Source: a virus. From it: DNA of 48,312 nucleotides. Under the pieces are notes generated by a model. It saw only the letters and a list, made by a program, of their open reading frames with translations. It ran no database searches and had not been told where the DNA came from. The stretch lies in the IMG/VR virus record IMGVR_UViG_3300027706_000012, positions 1 through 48,312 of that record; one strand, written 5' to 3'. Made by a program: the position numbers and the translations under genes. Shown here one piece after another: positions 9,961-48,082 of the stretch. Each line of letters opens with the position of its first letter. Position 1 is the stretch's first letter.

Positions 9961-10082
9961 GTTGGTTATAAAATAACAGGAAAATTACAACAAGCAAGCA
10001 ATGATGGCCTCTCTGGTATAACAGAAAGAGAACCTTCTTTTTTGTGTATGCTCTCTAATAGACTTTTCTAGTTTTAAGTGGC

Positions 10083-10111
10083 TTGTGAAGCGGGTTCAAA
10101 TGTGATATACT
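10083..10111 (+). promoter_or_regulatory. Promoter of the serine recombinase gene
   Basis: TTGTGA (10083-10088), 17-base spacer, TATACT (10106-10111). A GTAAC...GTTAC dyad follows in the leader, and CAGTAACC recurs near 10185, which could be operator or recombination-site half-sites. Confidence 0.55.
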
Positions 10112-10161
10112 GTCCAGTAACCACCCCGTTACCGGACATGAAAGAGAGGTTCAGCAGGTTA

Positions 10162-11010
10162 ATGGACAAAACTGCGGGAAATCGTACAGTAACCTCTCGC
10201 GCCAAAAACACGAAGTCTGCTGCTCAGAAGTCGCTTCCATCCTTGCGTGTGGCCTGTTATTTGCGTGTGTCCACAGAAGATCAAGCCGAAAGCGGGTTAG
10301 GGATTGCCGCTCAGCGCACGCGCTGTTATGCGATGGCGGAAGTCAAAGGGTGGCCGCGCCCTATTCCCTATTCCGATGAAGGGATTAGCGGAACCAAAGA
10401 AGTCAGCGGTCGCCCTTCGCTGCGCCGTTTGCTCGAAGATGTGCATGCTGGGAATATCGACGCCGTGATTATTCTTTCACTGGATCGGCTTGGTCGTAAG
10501 ACCAGGTTGGTTCTTGACCTGGTTGAAGAGTTAACCGCTGCTGGCGTCAATTTGATTTCCTGTAAGGAATCATTGGATACCAGTACACCACAAGGTCAAT
10601 TTGTGTTGACCATGTTCGCGGCGCTGGCCCAGCTCGAACGAGACATTACGGTGCAGCGAACGACTGATGCTCTGGCCGAGCGAGGCAAGCGTGATGGTGA
10701 AAAGGGTGGCCGGGTTCCCTATGGCTATCGGCGCATCTTTGAGGTACGAGAAGAGAAGCGTGTATGTGTTGGTGTGGAGATTGATGAGGAGCAGGCGAAA
10801 GTAGTGAAGCGTATTATCTCGATGGATAAGCGCGGGTTGTCTCTGCGCGAGATTGCTTCTCGTTTGAATGAGCAGCAGATTACTGGGCCTCGTGGTGGAA
10901 AGTGGTATGCCAGTTCGGTGGATACGATCTTGAAGAATCTGCCGATGTACCGAGGGGGTAAACGTGGAGCCAGTCAAGTACGCTGGCCTGCGATTCTCAA
11001 GGCATCATAA
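10162..11010 (+). CDS. Serine site-specific recombinase (resolvase/invertase type)
   Basis: 282 residues from ATG 10162; ATG 10138 is possible. The N-terminal catalytic domain is clear: VACYLRVSTEDQAESG with nucleophile S37, then DEGISGTKEVSGRPSLRR and DAVIILSLDRLGR, plus the long helix containing GQFVLTMFAALAQLERD. A short recombinase DNA-binding region (PYGYRR, ITGPRGGKWYASSVDTILKN) follows. The protein stops before the zinc-ribbon and coiled-coil parts of large serine integrases (usually 450 or more residues). Dimer resolution or inversion is therefore more likely than integration. Repeated GTAAC sequences in its leader could be its site. Confidence 0.85.
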   Translation: MDKTAGNRTVTSRAKNTKSAAQKSLPSLRVACYLRVSTEDQAESGLGIAAQRTRCYAMAEVKGWPRPIPYSDEGISGTKEVSGRPSLRRLLEDVHAGNIDAVIILSLDRLGRKTRLVLDLVEELTAAGVNLISCKESLDTSTPQGQFVLTMFAALAQLERDITVQRTTDALAERGKRDGEKGGRVPYGYRRIFEVREEKRVCVGVEIDEEQAKVVKRIISMDKRGLSLREIASRLNEQQITGPRGGKWYASSVDTILKNLPMYRGGKRGASQVRWPAILKAS

Positions 11011-31276: not shown

Positions 31277-31386
31277 CGTAAAAATTGGCTAAACTGGCTC
31301 TATTCCTGCATCCATGCCACATTGTTCTCTTGTGTACAGGATGAGGCATGAACCTCTTGTGTAGCGCAAGCAAGGCAAGCACGCCA

Positions 31387-31405
31387 GGGGTGGGGCGGGG
31401 AGGGG
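31387..31405 (+). other. Perfect G-quadruplex motif, copy 1
   Basis: GGGGTGGGGCGGGGAGGGG: four runs of four G with single-base loops. A near-identical motif is at 32235-32253, so the pair brackets the SLOG gene. Both lie on the + strand, the template strand for the leftward transcript. Confidence 0.7.
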
Positions 31406-31441
31406 CGAAACCTGGGGGAAGCACGAACGAACTGGGGACAC

Positions 31442-31473
31442 AAAAAAGCCGCCGACCAGGAAGGCCAGCGGGT
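31442..31473 (-). terminator. Terminator of the SLOG gene
   Basis: On the minus strand a 9-bp stem, CCGCTGGCC with GGTCGGCGG (G-T pairs included), is followed by CTTTTTT. It stands 17 bases after the SLOG stop codon. Confidence 0.6.
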
Positions 31474-31489
31474 CTTTTTTGCGGGGCGA

Positions 31490-31969
31490 TCAGCCCCAAA
31501 GCGAGGGGGCCGACACGCCAGAAGCAGCCGCGCAGGAGCAGGAAACGACGAACACTGGAACGCCCATTTTTTTGGCGAGAGCCACAGAAGCCGCCGAACC
31601 GCGAGAACCGCAGCAGGAAAAGACGACGGCGCAAGAAACCGAGCGCAGCAGCGCAGCCGAGCGAGCAACACCAGCGCCCCGACCGAGCGAGGACCAGGCG
31701 GCAGGGAAGACCGAGACCGACAAACCACGCGAACGGGCCGCAGAGACAGCCAGCGCGTCAGCGCCAGAAGCACCACCGGAGACGACCACCGAACCGGCAG
31801 GCAGGGCCGCAACCAGGGAGCGAACCAGCGAGGCAGGCGCGGAAGGAGACGAACCCCAGGCGCGAGACCCGAGCACCGCGACACGGGAACCAGCCGGAAG
31901 CGAGCGAACGAAAGAAACAGCGGGCGCAAGGGCCGCAGGAACGGAGGCAGAAGAAGAGCAAGAGACCAC
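31490..31969 (-). CDS. SLOG-family (DUF2493/YspA-like) nucleotide-binding-type protein with adenine-free coding strand
   Basis: 159 residues from GTG 31969 (TTG 32020 also in frame). SLOG motifs: RVAVLGSRAW, VVVSGGASGADALAV, VFPAAWSSLGRGAGVARSA, VALAKKMGVPVFVV. Compared with the usual family pattern, charged positions are changed (SRDW to SRAW, RN to RS). Adenine is almost absent from the coding strand, so the protein uses F L S C W P R V A G plus one Asp, two Lys and one Met. The start is A-free with a GGGGG ribosome site at a spacing of 7, and lies 58 bases after the predicted transcription start, as in the normal promoter copy (63). SLOG proteins bind nucleotides or ligands and some act in phage defence; the ligand here is unknown. 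Confidence 0.7.
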   Translation of the reverse strand: MVSCSSSASVPAALAPAVSFVRSLPAGSRVAVLGSRAWGSSPSAPASLVRSLVAALPAGSVVVSGGASGADALAVSAARSRGLSVSVFPAAWSSLGRGAGVARSAALLRSVSCAVVFSCCGSRGSAASVALAKKMGVPVFVVSCSCAAASGVSAPSLWG

Positions 31970-32033
31970 CGGACACCCCCAGAAAGAACGCCCACCCCGC
32001 GCAGGAGGGGCCAGGAACAAAAGCGCATCTACT

Positions 32034-32062
32034 TATAGAACGAGCAGGAAACGGAAAAGTAA
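32034..32062 (-). promoter_or_regulatory. Leftward promoter, adenine-stripped copy, driving the SLOG gene
   Basis: TTACTT (32062-32057), 17-base spacer, TCTATA (32039-32034). In a 31-base alignment with the promoter at 31246-31276, 26 bases agree and the five differences all fall on adenines of the normal copy, replaced by C, T, T, G, C. The A residues in the -35 and -10 hexamers are kept. Confidence 0.75.
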
Positions 32063-32580
32063 CGCGCATAGAAAACAGACCGACCGGACGGAAAAGGCGC
32101 GAAGGCAGGGAAGGCCCGCGACGAAGGAACAACAACACGCGACCAGCCGCGCCACAGCACCCCACCTGTGTTTTCAAAAAGGGAACGAGCGCCGACCAGC
32201 CGCGCCCACAACGCGAAAAGGCGACGGCACGCGAGGGGCGGGGCGGGGAGGGGCGAAGGGAACGAACGGCACGCAGGCAGCCGGAGCGCGACGAGGGCAG
32301 CCGGGCGACAAGCGCGAAGGCGCCAAAAGGAGGGGAACGACACCCGCGCGGCACGAGCAACCAGGCAAAGGAAACAAGAGCAGGGCAGCCGGGCGAAAAG
32401 GCCGCGCGCCGCGAAGCCCCGCCCAAAACGCGCACCAGGCCGCCCGAGACGAGCGGAAACCCACCCAGGCCGGGGCGCAAGACCAAGACGCCGACAAAAA
32501 AACGCCGCGAACGCCGACAACCGCGCAGGAAACAAGAAACGCACAAAGACCCCCACCACCAACAACACAGCGAGCAGCAC
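32063..32580 (-). other. Adenine-free leftward segment without assignable product
   Basis: Three minus-strand frames are open through almost all of it. One ends at a TGA at 32174-32176, one of the few places where A is kept; another reads through LKTQVG there. None matches a known protein to me, and composition (Arg, Cys, Pro, Phe) does not single out a coding frame. It could be an untranslated leader, a second reduced-alphabet gene or a structured RNA. Confidence 0.5.
32235..32253 (+). other. Perfect G-quadruplex motif, copy 2
   Basis: GGGGCGGGGCGGGGAGGGG, one base different from copy 1 at 31387. The identity extends into a following CGAA. Confidence 0.7.
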
Positions 32581-32803
32581 TACAAGAAAAAAAATTGCAT
32601 GTCAAGGACGTAGTGGAATGGAGTGTAGTGGAATGGAATGGAGTGTAGTGGAATGGAGGGAAATGCCGCGTTGTTTCGATGGCGAGAAAGCTTAAGTGTT
32701 GAAAGCGGCATTTCCCGGAATGGAACGGAACGGAATGGAATGGAACGGAACGGAATGGAACGAAGCCGAAGGGTATCCTTGACATGCAATTTTTTTTCTT
32801 GTA
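32581..32803. promoter_or_regulatory. Divergent promoter region built on a 28-bp inverted repeat
   Basis: Perfect arms 32581-32608 and 32776-32803, each containing TTGACA and a T8 tract pointing outward. A second perfect 12-bp pair, GGGAAATGCCGC (32658-32669) and GCGGCATTTCCC (32705-32716), is nested inside. The remaining sequence is a pentamer satellite of GGAAT and GGAAC units on both flanks. Fires towards the adenine-free unit on the left and the methyltransferases on the right. No gene in this 348-base gap. Confidence 0.7.
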
Positions 32804-32928
32804 CCATGTTAAGTGTTGTGGGTGTGGGTCGTCATCACGCTATCATCCCCCTTTTGCGCTGCCACCTTGCCCCTTTTTTCAAAAAAAATTCATGGTGTTT
32901 TTCAACCCTCTTTATACTAAAAGCAAAA

Positions 32929-33741
32929 ATGCTCACCGTTGGTTCACTCTTCACCGGCATCGGCGGCATCGATCTTGGCCTGGAGCAGACTGGTGGCTTT
33001 CGTATTGCCTGGCAGGTTGAAATCTCTCCATATTGTTGTCGCCTTCTTGCTTATCGATGGCCGCATATTCCCCGCTATGGCGACATTTGCCAGCTTGATT
33101 TCTCTCAAATGGAGCCGGTTGATGTGCTGGCTGGTGGCTTTCCGTGTCAGGATGTGAGCCTTGCTAATCGTCGCCGGGAGGGACTTGATGGAGCGCGATC
33201 TGGATTGTGGGGCGAATTTGTGCGTGCCATTGTTGCGCTTCGACCCAGATATGTCCTCGTGGAAAACGTTGACGCCCTGCGTTATGCAGGGACAGCACAA
33301 AAAGCGGCTGCCCCTCTTGGTCGAATACTTGGCGACCTGGCCGGAGTCGGGTATGATGCGGAGTGGTGTCGTTTATCGGCAGCCGCCCTCGGTTACTCCC
33401 ACTATCGCCCCCGTCTCTTCATTATTGCCTACCCCGAAGGCTCACGACGGGAGGCGCTCTTATGTGACATCCCAATGGGCTATTTCACGCAACGAGAAGG
33501 GCCTTCCGTTCAGTTGGATCGGCGTGGGTGCGTACTGGCATCACTTGAGCAAAGCCTACGGCAACCCTCGGTTTTCGGAAGCGATCCTGGGATTCCCTCT
33601 CGACTGGACCGCCTTACCGCCCTCGGAAACTCGGTGATGCCGGAGATGGCTCGTGTGATTGGAGCATGCATTCTTGTCGCAGAAGCAAACGAAGCAAATG
33701 AAACAGAGTCACGAATGGTATACGCCCCCGCGCTACCTTGA
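32929..33741 (+). CDS. DNA cytosine-5 methyltransferase (Dcm type)
   Basis: 270 residues, ATG 32929; a TATACT box only 11 bases upstream and no ribosome site suggest an almost leaderless message. Motif I is GSLFTGIGGIDLGLE, motif IV GGFPCQDVS with catalytic C73, motif VI ENV (112-114), motif VIII RPRLFIIA, motif X LTALGNSVMPEMA. The target-recognition region between VIII and X is short (about 55 residues). Transfers methyl from S-adenosylmethionine to cytosine, likely to protect element DNA from host restriction. A second plausible protein is encoded in another frame of the same DNA. Confidence 0.9.
   Translation: MLTVGSLFTGIGGIDLGLEQTGGFRIAWQVEISPYCCRLLAYRWPHIPRYGDICQLDFSQMEPVDVLAGGFPCQDVSLANRRREGLDGARSGLWGEFVRAIVALRPRYVLVENVDALRYAGTAQKAAAPLGRILGDLAGVGYDAEWCRLSAAALGYSHYRPRLFIIAYPEGSRREALLCDIPMGYFTQREGPSVQLDRRGCVLASLEQSLRQPSVFGSDPGIPSRLDRLTALGNSVMPEMARVIGACILVAEANEANETESRMVYAPALP
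33161..33637 (+). CDS. Overprinted frame inside the cytosine methyltransferase gene
   Basis: 158 residues entirely inside the Dcm gene, in a different frame. SSWKTLTP, EYLATWPESGMMRSGVVYRQ, SSLLPTPKAHDGRRS and NPRFSEAILGFPLDWTALPP match a recurrent signature of phage Dcm-associated sequence (WPxSGM, LPTPxAxDG, GFPxxWT), which in other phage methylases lies just before motif X. Both frames therefore look family-like. It may be translated on its own or be a frame-shifted relic; no strong ribosome site seen. Confidence 0.4.
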   Translation: MLIVAGRDLMERDLDCGANLCVPLLRFDPDMSSWKTLTPCVMQGQHKKRLPLLVEYLATWPESGMMRSGVVYRQPPSVTPTIAPVSSLLPTPKAHDGRRSYVTSQWAISRNEKGLPFSWIGVGAYWHHLSKAYGNPRFSEAILGFPLDWTALPPSETR

Positions 33742-42138: not shown

Positions 42139-42468
42139 TCACAAGTGCTGAGCGGAGCTAGATGCGCTAGCATCGTTGCACTTGTGTGTTTCAAGGATTC
42201 CCGTCGAGGCCAAAACTTCCTCTATCTGCTGGTACAGGCATTCCAGCCGGTCTAATCGTTCCTCAAGCCCGCTCGTCTCCGGTATCTCAAAGATGACGCG
42301 ATGATGCATCCTCGCGAGGATGGTAAGCTGCCTTCTCGACAGGGATTTCTCGCGATGGTCGGATGGATGCGTCGCAGGCTCTATGGCCGCTCTCCTGCAC
42401 CAGCGGTAGAGGGTGGAGGCGTTGATATCGAGGAGTCTACACGCTTCCTTGAGGCGATAATATTTCAT
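42139..42468 (-). CDS. Small MerR-like HTH protein (possible excisionase)
   Basis: 109 residues from ATG 42468 (longer frame from 42561 possible). MKYYRLKEACRLLDINASTL then YRWCRRAAIEPATHPSDHRE is a MerR/Xis-type helix-turn-helix; a coiled coil (LEERLDRLECLYQQIEEVL) may dimerise it. A TATACT box sits at 42480-42475 just upstream. Located next to the tyrosine recombinase, so a directionality factor is a good guess. Confidence 0.6.
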   Translation of the reverse strand: MKYYRLKEACRLLDINASTLYRWCRRAAIEPATHPSDHREKSLSRRQLTILARMHHRVIFEIPETSGLEERLDRLECLYQQIEEVLASTGILETHKCNDASASSSAQHL

Positions 42469-42476
42469 ATGGTCAG

Positions 42477-42638
42477 TATAATGTGGAGTGTGACAAAGGG
42501 GTAACACAACCGTAGATAGACCGGATTCCATTGAATGGTTGGGAGTTGTTGTTGCGTTCAACTCACTCCTATCTTCTACATCCTCGCTTCTAACCAGAGA
42601 CCGGACTTCTGTTGATGAAGTCCGGTCTCTGGTTTTTT
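42477..42638 (+). ncRNA. Possible small RNA ending in a strong terminator
   Basis: TATAAT at 42477-42482 (no clear -35) could start a + strand RNA that ends at a 16-bp perfect hairpin (42594-42609 with 42617-42632) followed by TTTTTT. Both neighbouring genes are leftward, so this terminator serves no known gene. Confidence 0.35.
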
Positions 42639-42749: not shown

Positions 42750-43895
42750 TTATAAATTCCGGAAGGATTGTTCCAACAGTTTGATGCCGGGATCAGCAGT
42801 TGCCAGTAATCCTTGCAGGTAGCGGTCGGTTGTTGCCAGGGATTCATGGAGCAAGAGCTTCTGCAAGGAACGGATATCCTGCCCGGCGGCATAACGCTGC
42901 TGTGTGGCTGTGTGCCGCCAGGAATGAATGGAGATCTTCTCCGCGTCGAGTCCTGCCTTTCGCGCATACTGCTTCATGAGAGCGTAGATGGTATTGCTCG
43001 ATAAGGGTTTATCTCGCGTTGGAAGATCAGCCGCTTTACATCCTGGGCCTTGATGTGCTGCCACAAAGAGCGGTGAGGTGGGCCGCATGTGTTTGAGACG
43101 GCCTGATGCTTCGAGATAGAGATCAAGCGCATCCTTCGCGGGTTGCGGTAATTCCGCTAAGAATTCCTGCTCGCCGTGTCCCTTGCTTTTGAAACGGTAG
43201 AGCCATCCCATGTGACGCCCGCCGCCCTCTTCGACAATGACGCCATATTCGAGATCTCCCCATCTGAGTCGAGCGATTTCTTCTCTGCGCCTGGCTGTCC
43301 AGAAGTAAAACAGGAAGATGGCGCGATCTCTTAGGCCCTGCACCGTGTCGCGGGGGATGACCGCGAAAAAGCGAGAGATGTCCTCGAACGGGATGGCGTG
43401 ATAATTGAGCGCGCGTTTGCTAAAGTGCATGCCTGCGGTCGGATTCGCCTTGTTGAATAACGCGATCTCCTCATCTTCATCCGATGAGTCGAGCAGGAAG
43501 CTAGAGGCATAATCATAGAAGCTGCGTAGGACAGCCAGGCGTACATCACTGGTAGCGGGCGATGGCGGTTTGCTTTTGCCTCGCCCACGTGGTGAAAGCG
43601 GCTCCTGGTAGACGAAAGCTTCAATGTCTCTTCGTCTCACGCGCTCCGGGTGCGCTGCGCGTTCTCCCTGGAAGAATCGTATGAGCGTGGAACTGTACAC
43701 CCTGACCGATGATTGGCTGTGGCTCCTGGCGTAAATCTGGGTCATGAACTGGTGGAAGCAACTCTCCCAATGGCTTCCGGCTGGAAATGGCGCTGGTGGC
43801 ATCTCAAACGCGGTAGAGGTCACAGGTTTCCTTCTCCCCCAAAAAAGATGAGGATGGCCGTTCTGTGCCTCGCTACACATCCGGGCCATCCTCAC
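42750..43895 (-). CDS. Tyrosine recombinase/integrase
   Basis: 381 residues from GTG 43895; ATG 43889 and 43880 are alternatives. SAM-like N-terminal domain (about 45-135), then catalytic residues: R204 in TARRREEIARLRW, K238 in RFKSKGHGE, H324-x-x-R327 in HSWRHTA, H350 in LLHESLATTDRY and nucleophile Y359. Complete set. A TATAAT box lies at 43912-43907, about 12 bases from the start, and the repeat array lies directly upstream. Integration into the host, or dimer resolution, is inferred. Confidence 0.85.
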   Translation of the reverse strand: MRMARMCSEAQNGHPHLFWGRRKPVTSTAFEMPPAPFPAGSHWESCFHQFMTQIYARSHSQSSVRVYSSTLIRFFQGERAAHPERVRRRDIEAFVYQEPLSPRGRGKSKPPSPATSDVRLAVLRSFYDYASSFLLDSSDEDEEIALFNKANPTAGMHFSKRALNYHAIPFEDISRFFAVIPRDTVQGLRDRAIFLFYFWTARRREEIARLRWGDLEYGVIVEEGGGRHMGWLYRFKSKGHGEQEFLAELPQPAKDALDLYLEASGRLKHMRPTSPLFVAAHQGPGCKAADLPTRDKPLSSNTIYALMKQYARKAGLDAEKISIHSWRHTATQQRYAAGQDIRSLQKLLLHESLATTDRYLQGLLATADPGIKLLEQSFRNL

Positions 43896-43906
43896 GTGAA
43901 GGTTTT

Positions 43907-43912
43907 ATTATA
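43907..43912 (-). promoter_or_regulatory. -10 box of the tyrosine recombinase gene
   Basis: TATAAT on the minus strand. The first repeat of the array (43939-43952) falls at the -35 position, so whatever binds the repeats should control the recombinase. Confidence 0.55.
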
Positions 43913-43938
43913 CGGCCTGCCGATTCGCGCAAGCACAC

Positions 43939-44243
43939 GATTCACCACCCCCACCCTGACTAGTTGGGGGTGGTGAATCTTTTGTTCTCCAATTAACCAG
44001 GGGGTGGTGAATCTTTTGCAAGAACATGTTGAGGGGTGGTGAATCTTTGTTGTTTTTGCAGGAAAAAGATTCACCACCCTGCGCTGAAATGGTGCAGAAG
44101 TTTCACCACCCCTACCCGTGAATGGTGAAAAAGTTTCACCACCCCCTGGATAAAACAACACGAAGTTTCACCACCCTCTTCAGGCTGGCGATGGGTTGCG
44201 ATGAGGAAATAAGCCAATCAAAAGGGGGTGGTGAAACTTTTTG
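43939..44243. repeat. Iteron-like array: nine copies of a GGGTGGTGAA(T/A)C motif
   Basis: Copies near 43939, 43966, 44000, 44033, 44063, 44098, 44128, 44163 and 44224. Two subtypes: GGTGGTGAATCTTTT (first five) and GGTGGTGAAACTTTT (last four), in both orientations. Spacing 25-60 bases. Typical of a plasmid replication origin, a partition site or a recombination regulatory site. The region 43896-44459 has no gene. Confidence 0.8.
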
Positions 44244-44255
44244 CGCGAAGTCCTT

Positions 44256-44310
44256 CGAATCTATTCGAGTAATAGATTCGCTTTAGATTCGCTTATAGGG
44301 ATTCGAATCG
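44256..44310. repeat. Palindrome and GATTCG cluster beside the array
   Basis: Perfect 10-bp arms CGAATCTATT (44256-44265) and AATAGATTCG (44271-44280), followed by further GATTCG/CGAATC copies. A/T-richer than its surroundings. Could be the unwinding or recombination-crossover part of the locus. Confidence 0.6.
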
Positions 44311-44393
44311 CTGCGCTCTTCGCCCCTATTTTTCTTTCTCTTGAAAAAGTTGTTGAAAGGTGAGGATGAGATTGCATCTGAGTGGTGAACAAC

Positions 44394-44427
44394 AAAAAGA
44401 GCAATGCGTTTCAGCATTACTCTTTTT
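44394..44427. terminator. Bidirectional terminator
   Basis: AAAAAGAG...CTCTTTTT stem of about 14 bp with one mismatch (44394-44407 with 44414-44427); ends the leftward operon at 44460. Confidence 0.65.
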
Positions 44428-44459
44428 GACGGACGTACTTCCGAACTGGTGAATTGAAC

Positions 44460-44744
44460 CTATGAGAATTGAGCATGTTCCTTTCGTATTACTATAAGAA
44501 ATCTCACCTGCTCCTCGGTGTCATTGGTCGGGAATGAGCCGAGAGGTTGTTTGCAATTGGCACAGCGAACAACGGTTTGTTCGCTGTGCTGCTGGAAAGT
44601 GACATCCAGCGCTGGGAGGTCGCCGCCCCACAGATGGCGAATCACGTCCGGGCCTTCGTGCTGAAAGTCCGGGTCCTGAAATGGGTTGCCTGAAAGTGAC
44701 TGTCGAATTTTTTGTTCAGCGGTAAGCTGCTCGTTCTCAAACAT
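44460..44744 (-). CDS. Small protein with CxxC
   Basis: 94 residues, overlapping the upstream gene by 8 bases. VVRCANCKQPLGSF gives one Cys pair only. Acidic. Unknown function; operon partner of the HTH-GNAT gene. Confidence 0.5.
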   Translation of the reverse strand: MFENEQLTAEQKIRQSLSGNPFQDPDFQHEGPDVIRHLWGGDLPALDVTFQQHSEQTVVRCANCKQPLGSFPTNDTEEQVRFLIVIRKEHAQFS

Positions 44745-45567
44745 CTAAGTATCTCCCGGTTAAATTGGCAAGCCGCTCGACTCCGGCTTCGTCTAATGGA
44801 AACACGTAGGCCAGTCTGCCAGGGGCGATAGACTTACCTTTCATCAGGTGAAAGCCGATCTTTCTCACGAGCCGATCACCCTCTGGCGTGGCTGTCACCG
44901 TATATAAATGCCGAATGTCATAATTATTGGCTCTGAGATCCAATATTTTGTTCGCCATTCTTTGCACGATTAACCCGGCATACAGTCGTCGCTCATGATC
45001 GGGAAGGGTGGGATCGACGGCCATCACGTCGATATACACGTCAAATTGCTCCAGGCGAGTAAACTTGAGGACGTGCCGCAACTTGATTTCTCGCTCGATG
45101 CGCTTGCCAGTTAAGAGGTCATCAAGAAATCCTGGGGTAAAGCGGAACATGGAAACGTAGCCCACCACCCGGCTTCCGACCTTCAAACTCCAAAAGGTGA
45201 ACTCGCTCTTTTGCTGGAACGCAATGCGTTCAGGCAAGGGCGTAATGAACTCCTCGCCGAAACACGCGATGCCAATCCGAAGTTCTTCCGCCTGGTCTCC
45301 GGGGGTTGAGCGGGAGAAATAGATATGGTCACGAATGAACCCGTATTCATCGTGTGTCGCCCTGGCAAGCGCATCGATATCTCGTTTAGGGTAGACTCTC
45401 GTTTTCTTCCACGGATGCTGATACCAGGGGATTTTGTTTTCATTGACCCGTCTATAGAACATGCCCTTATCGAGTCCGAGAACTCTCTGGGCATCTTTAG
45501 CTTCATAGAAATGGCGCTCAATCTCCTCTCGTGTGAGCGCGTTTGGGTGTGTTTCATCTTCGGTCAT
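44737..45567 (-). CDS. HTH - GNAT acetyltransferase-like fusion protein
   Basis: 276 residues from ATG 45567 (GGAG upstream). N-terminal HTH of excisionase/MerR type: AKDAQRVLGLDKGMFYRRVN then HPWKKTRVYPKRDIDALA. C-terminal GNAT-like fold (residues 85-276): VGYVSMFRFTP, DVYIDVMAVDPTLPDHERRL, LYTVTATPEGDRLVRKIGFH. A DNA-binding acetyltransferase could sense acetyl-CoA or modify a partner. Divergent from the transfer-like cassette. Confidence 0.65.
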   Translation of the reverse strand: MTEDETHPNALTREEIERHFYEAKDAQRVLGLDKGMFYRRVNENKIPWYQHPWKKTRVYPKRDIDALARATHDEYGFIRDHIYFSRSTPGDQAEELRIGIACFGEEFITPLPERIAFQQKSEFTFWSLKVGSRVVGYVSMFRFTPGFLDDLLTGKRIEREIKLRHVLKFTRLEQFDVYIDVMAVDPTLPDHERRLYAGLIVQRMANKILDLRANNYDIRHLYTVTATPEGDRLVRKIGFHLMKGKSIAPGRLAYVFPLDEAGVERLANLTGRYLDV

Positions 45568-45631
45568 GAGGATAGCTCCGTTGGTGAAGTTCCTGTATTG
45601 TAACACATAGACACCCCTGTGACTCTCTCTC

Positions 45632-45660
45632 TTGACAAATTGGCAAACATCATTTATAAC
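45632..45660 (+). promoter_or_regulatory. Promoter of the transfer-like cassette
   Basis: TTGACA (45632-45637), 17-base spacer, TATAAC (45655-45660): close to consensus. Divergent from the HTH-GNAT gene. Confidence 0.75.
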
Positions 45661-45699
45661 CATAGTATACCGTTGTAACTCTATGAAGTCAACCGTCTG

Positions 45700-45720
45700 C
45701 TTTTGCCGAGCAAGTCAAAC
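45700..45720 (+). promoter_or_regulatory. Shared leader motif, copy 2
   Basis: TTTTGCCGAGCAAGTCAAAC, the partner of 1248-1269, about 40 bases downstream of the -10 box. Confidence 0.5.
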
Positions 45721-46289: not shown

Positions 46290-47921
46290 ATGGACGAGAT
46301 CCGCGAAATAACGCCTGAGGATTCCGAGGCTCGCCGCTATGCTGCCTTTCGTCGCCCGTCTCCTTTGATGGTCGGCGGTGGGACGATGCTTGCTGCCGGC
46401 ATTGTTGATCTGCTGGCGCATCTTGGCCCGACTGGCCTGGTCATTGGTGGGATTGCCGCCTTCATTGCCTCACAGCATGTTCCTGATGCGGTTGAGCAGG
46501 TGAGTGGAGCGCTGCCCGTCGCGCTCCCTCGCCGTTCCAATGCTGTTCATACTGCTGATGGGAAACGTACCTTGCTTGATAGAGCGCTTGGTCGTCATCC
46601 AGTGGTCGTGTCTTCTGAAATACAGGAGCCTGATGATACGACGCTGGTTGAGGAGGAGGATGAGGAGGATGAATATCAATTACACCTGGGAGAGGAAGCG
46701 ATTTTTGCTTCCTCGGCTCTCCTTCGAGCGGGACCGTCCATCAAGCGGATTACTGTTGAGCAGGCAGTAGCGCATATCGAGCGCAATAGTTATGAGGCCT
46801 ATCTTGGCCGGTCGCTGACCCGACCGGGAAATCCGGCGGTCAAATTCAATTTCTATAAACGGCATCTCAAGCTGATTGGTGCCTCGCAGCATGGTAAATC
46901 GAGTATGGCGGCGGCCCTGCTCGACATGATTACTCGGACGCATGATCCGCGCCATGTGCAGATCGCGCTGTTAGATATCGAGAACAAAACGGGGAATCTT
47001 TTCGCGCATCTGCCCCACGTAGCGCGTGTGCGCAAGCATGGCGAGACGATTCAGTTGCATGCCACCAATTATGACCAGGTGCTTGAGCATCTGACACACC
47101 TGGTCTCGCTGATTGAATACCGGTATACGCTCTCGGAAGAGGAACTGGATCGTCAACCTGTGGTGATTGTCTACCTGGAAGAATTCATCGATCTCAAAGA
47201 TCATTTCAAGCTGCGCATCGATGCGGTCGAGCGTTCCGAGAAAGACCAGGCCAAACAAGAGTATGCGCAGTTGGTCTACTGTATCAAGCAGATTGCGCGC
47301 CGTGGCCTCAAAGTCTATGTCCAGTTATTGATGTGCGCCCAGGTTGATTATCGAGATGATGATCTGCAGGAAGCGCTGGTGAATGTCACGAGTGGCCTTT
47401 CCTTCTGTGTGCGTGTGTCGGCAGCGCAGGCAGCCGGGTTCTATCAGACCGAGTTGCTGACTCGCAACGCGAAAGAGGATATGGTTGGTCAGGCTGTGGT
47501 AGAGATGCCTGATTGCAAAGATCTCATCCTGGCTCCCGATTTCGACTTGAAAGCTCGCCTGAAGATACACGCGCAGGCAGTCGCGCAGGTGGAACCGCTT
47601 GTGGCACGTCAAGCGGTGAAAGAACGTGATGATACGCCTGAACTGTCCACTCCGATTCAGAATCCGGCAAAGATCACGATCCTGGCAGCTCGTAGTGGCG
47701 CAAAGCCACAGCCTCGCTTGCAGGATGCGATTGCTTGCTGGAATGAACTGGTAGAGGCTGGTCAAAATCCATCGAGGAATAATCTCCAGCAGGCGCTTCT
47801 CGCGAAAGGGTTTGAATGCCGCGAGAACTGGGCGCGCAAATTCTACGAGGACATTCGCGAGATGCTTGCCGCTGAATCAGCATCATCGTCTTCTGGTGAG
47901 GAAGTGGCTGCAGGTGGGTAG
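46290..47921 (+). CDS. FtsK/TraB-like DNA translocase
   Basis: 543 residues. Two membrane segments (about 26-62), an acidic linker (EEEDEEDEY near 121-129), then a RecA-like motor: Walker A GASQHGKSS (197-205), ALLDIENKTG strand, Walker B VVIVYLEEF (291-299), and sensor-type helix QIARRGLKVYVQLLMCAQ. The C-terminal 70 residues form a winged-helix-like end (SRNNLQQALLAKGF, NWARKFYEDIREM). This order (membrane, motor, DNA-recognition wing) is that of actinobacterial TraB conjugation translocases and FtsK. Conjugal transfer or segregation of the element is inferred. Confidence 0.75.
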   Translation: MDEIREITPEDSEARRYAAFRRPSPLMVGGGTMLAAGIVDLLAHLGPTGLVIGGIAAFIASQHVPDAVEQVSGALPVALPRRSNAVHTADGKRTLLDRALGRHPVVVSSEIQEPDDTTLVEEEDEEDEYQLHLGEEAIFASSALLRAGPSIKRITVEQAVAHIERNSYEAYLGRSLTRPGNPAVKFNFYKRHLKLIGASQHGKSSMAAALLDMITRTHDPRHVQIALLDIENKTGNLFAHLPHVARVRKHGETIQLHATNYDQVLEHLTHLVSLIEYRYTLSEEELDRQPVVIVYLEEFIDLKDHFKLRIDAVERSEKDQAKQEYAQLVYCIKQIARRGLKVYVQLLMCAQVDYRDDDLQEALVNVTSGLSFCVRVSAAQAAGFYQTELLTRNAKEDMVGQAVVEMPDCKDLILAPDFDLKARLKIHAQAVAQVEPLVARQAVKERDDTPELSTPIQNPAKITILAARSGAKPQPRLQDAIACWNELVEAGQNPSRNNLQQALLAKGFECRENWARKFYEDIREMLAAESASSSSGEEVAAGG

Positions 47922-47932
47922 GTAGGTGTTCA

Positions 47933-48008
47933 GGTAGGTAGGTGGGTGGGTGACTGTAAGACGAGCGGGAAAATGGGTGTATTCCAGTCACCCACCCACC
48001 TACCTACC
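47933..48008. repeat. 24-bp perfect inverted repeat of GGTA/GGTG units
   Basis: Arms 47933-47956 and 47985-48008 are exact inverse complements; loop of 28 bases. One arm is G-rich (GGTAGGTAGGTGGGTGGGTG) and could fold as a quadruplex; together they could form a cruciform. It starts 12 bases after the stop of the translocase gene, a position like the clt transfer locus next to tra genes of Streptomyces plasmids. Confidence 0.75.
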
Positions 48009-48082
48009 TACCTACCCAGGCTCATTAATCACCTTGCATGAGTCGATGTGATGCAATCGTTAAACAAACAGAAGCGTTTTAT

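Follow-up and report, generated by a model that had tools for sequence, protein, structure and literature searches.

A nine-copy mixed-orientation repeat array upstream of an Xer-type phage integrase gene as a candidate nucleoprotein assembly site

A 305-bp array of nine short repeats is located upstream of the tyrosine recombinase (integrase) gene in the genome of the soil-bacterium phage analysed here. We read this array, with moderate confidence, as a nucleoprotein assembly site of the integration module, which would govern the expression of the integrase, the recombination complex, or both. One oligomerising DNA-binding protein, most likely phage-encoded, would bind the nine asymmetric 17-bp sites, and the bound protein would coat or wrap the region upstream of the integrase. 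The coating would set the transcription of the integrase, and the coated array may also build the complex for the Xer-type integrase acting at a palindromic candidate core. The reading is based on the invariance of the repeat motif between flanks of random similarity, on the stretch 43896-44390 that is left as the promoter region of the integrase, on the palindromic cluster that adjoins the array, on the Xer-type architecture of the integrase and on precedents in other integration and Xer systems. It would be unusual for a temperate phage to control integration through nine sites in mixed orientation next to an integrase of the Xer type, not of the lambda type, and the reading makes a clear, testable prediction as to which phage protein binds the array.

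All positions refer to the window, i.e. the whole virus record of 48312 bp, which has a 165-bp terminal repeat with one mismatch. Therefore, this IMG/VR virus genome of ~48147 bp is probably circular or circularly assembled. The phage encodes a portal, a capsid, a terminase, a holin, a tyrosine recombinase, a serine recombinase, a cytosine methylase and an FtsK-type ATPase, and it also codes for a weakly DnaD/HTH_36-like (Rep-like) protein. The serine recombinase (10078-11010) is related to CcrB/CcrC but has only 310 aa, and it coexists with the tyrosine integrase in this genome. At 31300-33000, beside the cytosine methylase gene, the AT skew is strong (0.4) and GGAAT/GGAAC pentamers are repeated. 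The relatives identified by the capsid were found as prophages in Ktedonobacter, Dictyobacter, Thermogemmatispora and other Ktedonobacteria (Chloroflexota), and they point to Ktedonobacteria as the host group. The phages of this group have been little studied so far.

The array consists of nine exact copies of GGGTGGTGAAWC at 43939-44237, and no exact copy was found outside the array in the whole 48.3 kb. By our own estimate, chance would give ~0.01 exact copies. When two mismatches were allowed, 15 copies were found against 6.6 expected, and none of the 100 shuffles reached 15. Eight of the nine copies extend to GGGTGGTGAAWCTT. The conserved motif is 14-17 bp long, with a T-rich tail at its last positions, and the information drops after ~17 bp. 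The 12-mer is invariant across the nine copies except at the W position, where five copies read GAATC and four read GAAAC. The GAATC copies are located on the left: copy 1 (43939-43950, minus), which is the sole copy without the T-rich tail, copy 2 (43968-43979, plus), which together with copy 1 makes up an inverted pair of 15 bp, copy 3 (44002-44013, plus), copy 4 (44034-44045, plus) and copy 5 (44068-44079, minus). The GAAAC copies are located on the right: copy 6 (44100-44111, minus), copy 7 (44133-44144, minus), which is followed by a second half-site TTCACCA, copy 8 (44165-44176, minus) and copy 9 (44226-44237, plus), 61 bp from copy 8. The orientations thus run - + + + - - - - + (four plus, five minus). 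The centre spacings are 29, 34, 32, 34, 32, 33, 32 and 61 bp, mostly 32-34 bp, or roughly three helical turns. The mixed orientation, the 12-17 bp motif and the 32-34 bp pitch do not fit a CRISPR array.

A nine-copy mixed-orientation array with GAATC and GAAAC subtypes segregated to left and right had been reported in a sequence-only reading of this DNA, and both observations were confirmed here. The probability of perfect segregation by chance is 2/126 = 0.016, and the subtype does not track the orientation of the copy. That reading had also taken the two subtypes to suggest two cooperating proteins or two conformations. The segregation stands, but two proteins are not required, since one variable base in a site that otherwise does not vary also fits a single protein. 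The surroundings of copies 6 and 7 are somewhat similar, so local duplication may be the source of the segregation. The flanks of the copies have a similarity of 8.75 within subtypes and 8.35 between subtypes, whereas ~9.2 is expected for two random flanks. Because the flanks are no more alike than random, the motif appears to be a selected binding site and not the leftover of a recent duplication. This divergence is as expected of putative protein-binding sites under selection, and is the strongest evidence for them that the sequence itself offers.

The array sits in a non-coding gap of 560 bp, in which ~500 bp lie between two flanking hairpins. The first, a terminator-like 15-bp hairpin at 44391-44430 (z -5.8), follows the operon 45663-44460 on the minus strand. 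Because this hairpin closes the upstream operon, 43896-44390 would be the integrase's own promoter region. Transcription of the integrase should start inside the gap, or come by read-through of the terminator. The second hairpin, at 43848-43895 on the minus strand (z -4.65), is read from the sequence as terminator-like, with a U6 tail, and belongs to the integrase leader. It is located between the array and the likely integrase start. Unless it acts as an attenuator, it would impede transcription that runs from the array into the integrase, which is a point against the nucleoprotein-site reading. The array had been proposed to act as an operator of the recombinase. Consistent with this, it fills the gap where the integrase promoter should lie. 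A search of the gap gave no consensus sigma-70 promoter, another point against the nucleoprotein-site reading. Promoters in the phylum of the phage host may differ from the sigma-70 consensus.

The integrase gene (42750-43823, minus) encodes a tyrosine recombinase of 357 aa. The longest open reading frame starts at GTG 43895, but translation more likely begins at the in-frame GTG 43823, which has GGAGAAGG in front of it. The array, which had been placed adjacent to this gene, is indeed upstream of it, but at ~116 bp from the likely start and with the terminator-like leader hairpin in between. According to Pfam, PHROGs, NCBIfam and PDB searches, the integrase is near the Xer recombinases. Positions 2-271 of the 290-position XerD model align with residues 25-335 of the 357, nearly end to end with XerD/XerC, though the scores do not reach the curated cut-offs of XerC and XerD themselves. 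The PDB sequence matches are XerA/XerC/XerD, and the PHROG integrase profile matches from position 176 only. In the alignment with a 38-39% homologue, the catalytic-set positions R, K, H-R, H and Y are kept. By these sequence comparisons, the integrase is of the two-domain Xer type. Right after the gene, a perfect 18-bp inverted repeat with a T-run is found at 42592-42634; it is probably a terminator, and is a second candidate recombination site.

On the other side of the array, a 25-bp palindrome, CGAATCTATT-CGAGT-AATAGATTCG (10-5-10), is present at 44256-44280 and is a candidate recombinase core site or operator. From 44256 it reads CGAATCTATTCGAGTAATAGATTCG, and more GATTCG half-sites adjoin it. 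In total, five CGAATC/GATTCG half-sites are contained in the 54 bp of 44256-44309, against never more than three in 100 simulated sequences. The palindrome/GATTCG cluster noted earlier beside the array was thus borne out. Since the RNA folding of 44250-44312 is no better than that of shuffles (z -1.25), the palindromic element is likelier to function at the DNA level. The palindrome could be the recombinase core site; its 25 bp are roughly the right size compared with the ~28-30 bp inverted-repeat Xer core, as a candidate only. As a point against the nucleoprotein-site reading, no convincing attB or integrated copy that would prove the palindrome as the core was found in 47 Ktedonobacteria genomes, a set that may exclude the true host. 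Neither the best matches of 20 bp nor a CGCTGCGCTCTTCGC match that recurs is persuasive, as they seem to be due to chance or to coding sequence.

Two proteins encoded near the array are candidate binders. A small HTH_17/MerR-type protein (42139-42561, minus), next to and downstream of the integrase, is a candidate excisionase or array binder. Upstream, a protein with weak HTH_17 and weak GNAT-like matches (44737-45663, minus) is a candidate array binder. An FtsK/SpoIIIE-type DNA translocase is encoded at 46290-47921 on the plus strand, and inverted AGGTAGGTAGGT / ACCTACCTACCT runs are found at the end of this gene and beyond (47911-48018). The element GCTTTTGCCGAGCAA(A)GTCAAAC is observed at 1247-1270, 1312-1325 and 45699-45719, ahead of both the Rep-like gene and the FtsK operon, and has an inverted partner. 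This distribution makes it a candidate common early operator, and suggests that the early genes use an operator other than the array.

The array was not found in related virus records, one of which has a single isolated 11-bp match, and the array pattern was absent from the 47 Ktedonobacteria genomes and, in inverted orientation, from IMG/VR. The sole IMG/VR match in direct orientation is an unrelated repeat-rich contig. Across 400 Chloroflexota genomes the pattern matched once, at a genuine tandem repeat of 32 bp whose spacers are nearly identical (CACCAAGACACCAAG type), and this match was judged unrelated. In 11 prophage regions examined, only simple tandem repeats were observed. In the nearest integrase homologues (38%, L076 and L086), a gene takes the place directly upstream and there is no array, which also counts against the nucleoprotein-site reading.

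The position between the terminator-like hairpin and the integrase gene would also suit a plain operator that controls only integrase transcription and takes no part in recombination. Since a different shared element precedes the Rep-like and FtsK genes, such an operator would be integrase-specific. However, nine sites over 300 bp exceed the usual need of a simple operator, and a second, palindromic repeat family adjoins the array. We consider a plain operator possible but rather unlikely.

It is doubtful that the array is a replication origin, in which the repeats would be iterons for a phage initiator and the AT-rich 44240-44489 would be the melting region, as the sequence-only reading had also proposed. 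The sites are asymmetric, of iteron length and repeated at regular spacing, the adjoining 44240-44489 reaches 65% AT per 100 bp, and the genome is apparently circular. However, many other gaps in the genome are equally AT-rich, and the copies are in mixed orientation (four plus, five minus), not direct repeats. Around the circle, 5.3 kb separate the array from the Rep-like gene (1385-2422), which has no repeat family in or beside it. Its product gives DnaD/HTH_36 matches below the curated cut-offs and no PHROG match. A DnaA-box-like 9-mer is absent within ~7 kb of the array. The GC skew, suggested as a check, shows no turn at the array, and its detrended extremes are at 11.4 and 26.6 kb. The mixed orientation, the lack of nearby DnaA boxes and of a skew turn, and the weak and distant Rep-like gene thus argue against the origin claim. 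Virus G004, a relative in which the N-terminal part of the Rep-like protein is also found, has no such array either. It has a CRISPR-like array of 11 repeats of ~37 nt (L037:9786-10553), and a contig with an FtsK homologue has five such repeats (L084:5745-6072), with a pitch of 71-74 bp in these two arrays; neither array consists of iterons. A 28-bp palindrome with dif-like geometry, TAACCCATGAA-CCTATA-TTCATGGGTTA (11-6-11), occupies 1013-1040, in the interval that separates gene 5-1006 from the Rep-like gene.

It is quite unlikely that the array is a partition centromere or a loading site (TraB/KOPS-like) of the FtsK-like translocase for segregation, transfer or resolution of the circular genome. 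The sites are G-rich, asymmetric and oriented, the FtsK-like gene is 2.1 kb from the array, and the C-terminus of its product is divergent among relatives. The FtsK-like, membrane-protein and tyrosine-recombinase genes are also neighbours in K. racemifer and L086, and this recurrence keeps the translocase idea alive. However, the sites point both ways with no convergence on the palindrome, and the homologous FtsK loci in K. racemifer and L084 have no such array. A partition site had been proposed earlier, but no ParA/ParB, ParM/ParR or TubZ/TubR gene was recognised among the proteins scanned (Pfam, PHROGs, NCBIfam; small ORFs covered in part). It is improbable that the oriented G-rich repeats recruit the phage's own FtsK-type translocase, which would activate the Xer-type integrase at the palindrome. 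Such an Xer/FtsK-like module would couple integration, excision or dimer resolution to translocation, outside the host XerCD-dif-FtsK system. The proposal that the repeats, beside the integrase and a candidate core, are lambda-style arm-type sites of the integrase itself is very improbable and largely refuted, because only ~24 residues precede the core-binding domain and leave no room for an arm-binding domain.

The reading of the array as a nucleoprotein assembly site can be compared with known systems. In KplE1, the integrase promoter overlaps the att region and is repressed by Int and the directionality factor (PMC2951348). The attL/intS promoter region with its IntS and TorI sites resembles the present array, with its putative sites, in that many sites for recombination proteins overlap the integrase promoter. 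The KplE1 sites are, however, for an arm-binding integrase and an RDF (PMC2951348), whereas the phage integrase has no arm domain. In ICEMlSym, the wHTH protein RdfS oligomerises over attP and the intS promoter (PMC11963761). There, the stretch upstream of the integrase is bound by an oligomerising small HTH protein that controls expression and excision, as is proposed for the present array; the RdfS sites have no consensus (PMC11963761), whereas the phage motif is exact and in mixed orientation. Plasmid iterons and the lambda origin (PMC10797057) share multiple short repeats with regular spacing, but the phage array is in mixed orientation, is not beside a rep gene and has no DnaA boxes nearby. 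At the cer site, with PepA/ArgR, the 30-bp Xer core is adjoined by accessory sequence of ~180 bp (PMC2409434). It is similar to the phage arrangement in the Xer-type recombinase and in the short core, a candidate in the phage, at one end of roughly 200-300 bp of flanking DNA. It differs in that the recombinases of cer come from the host and no repeat array is described there (PMC2409434).
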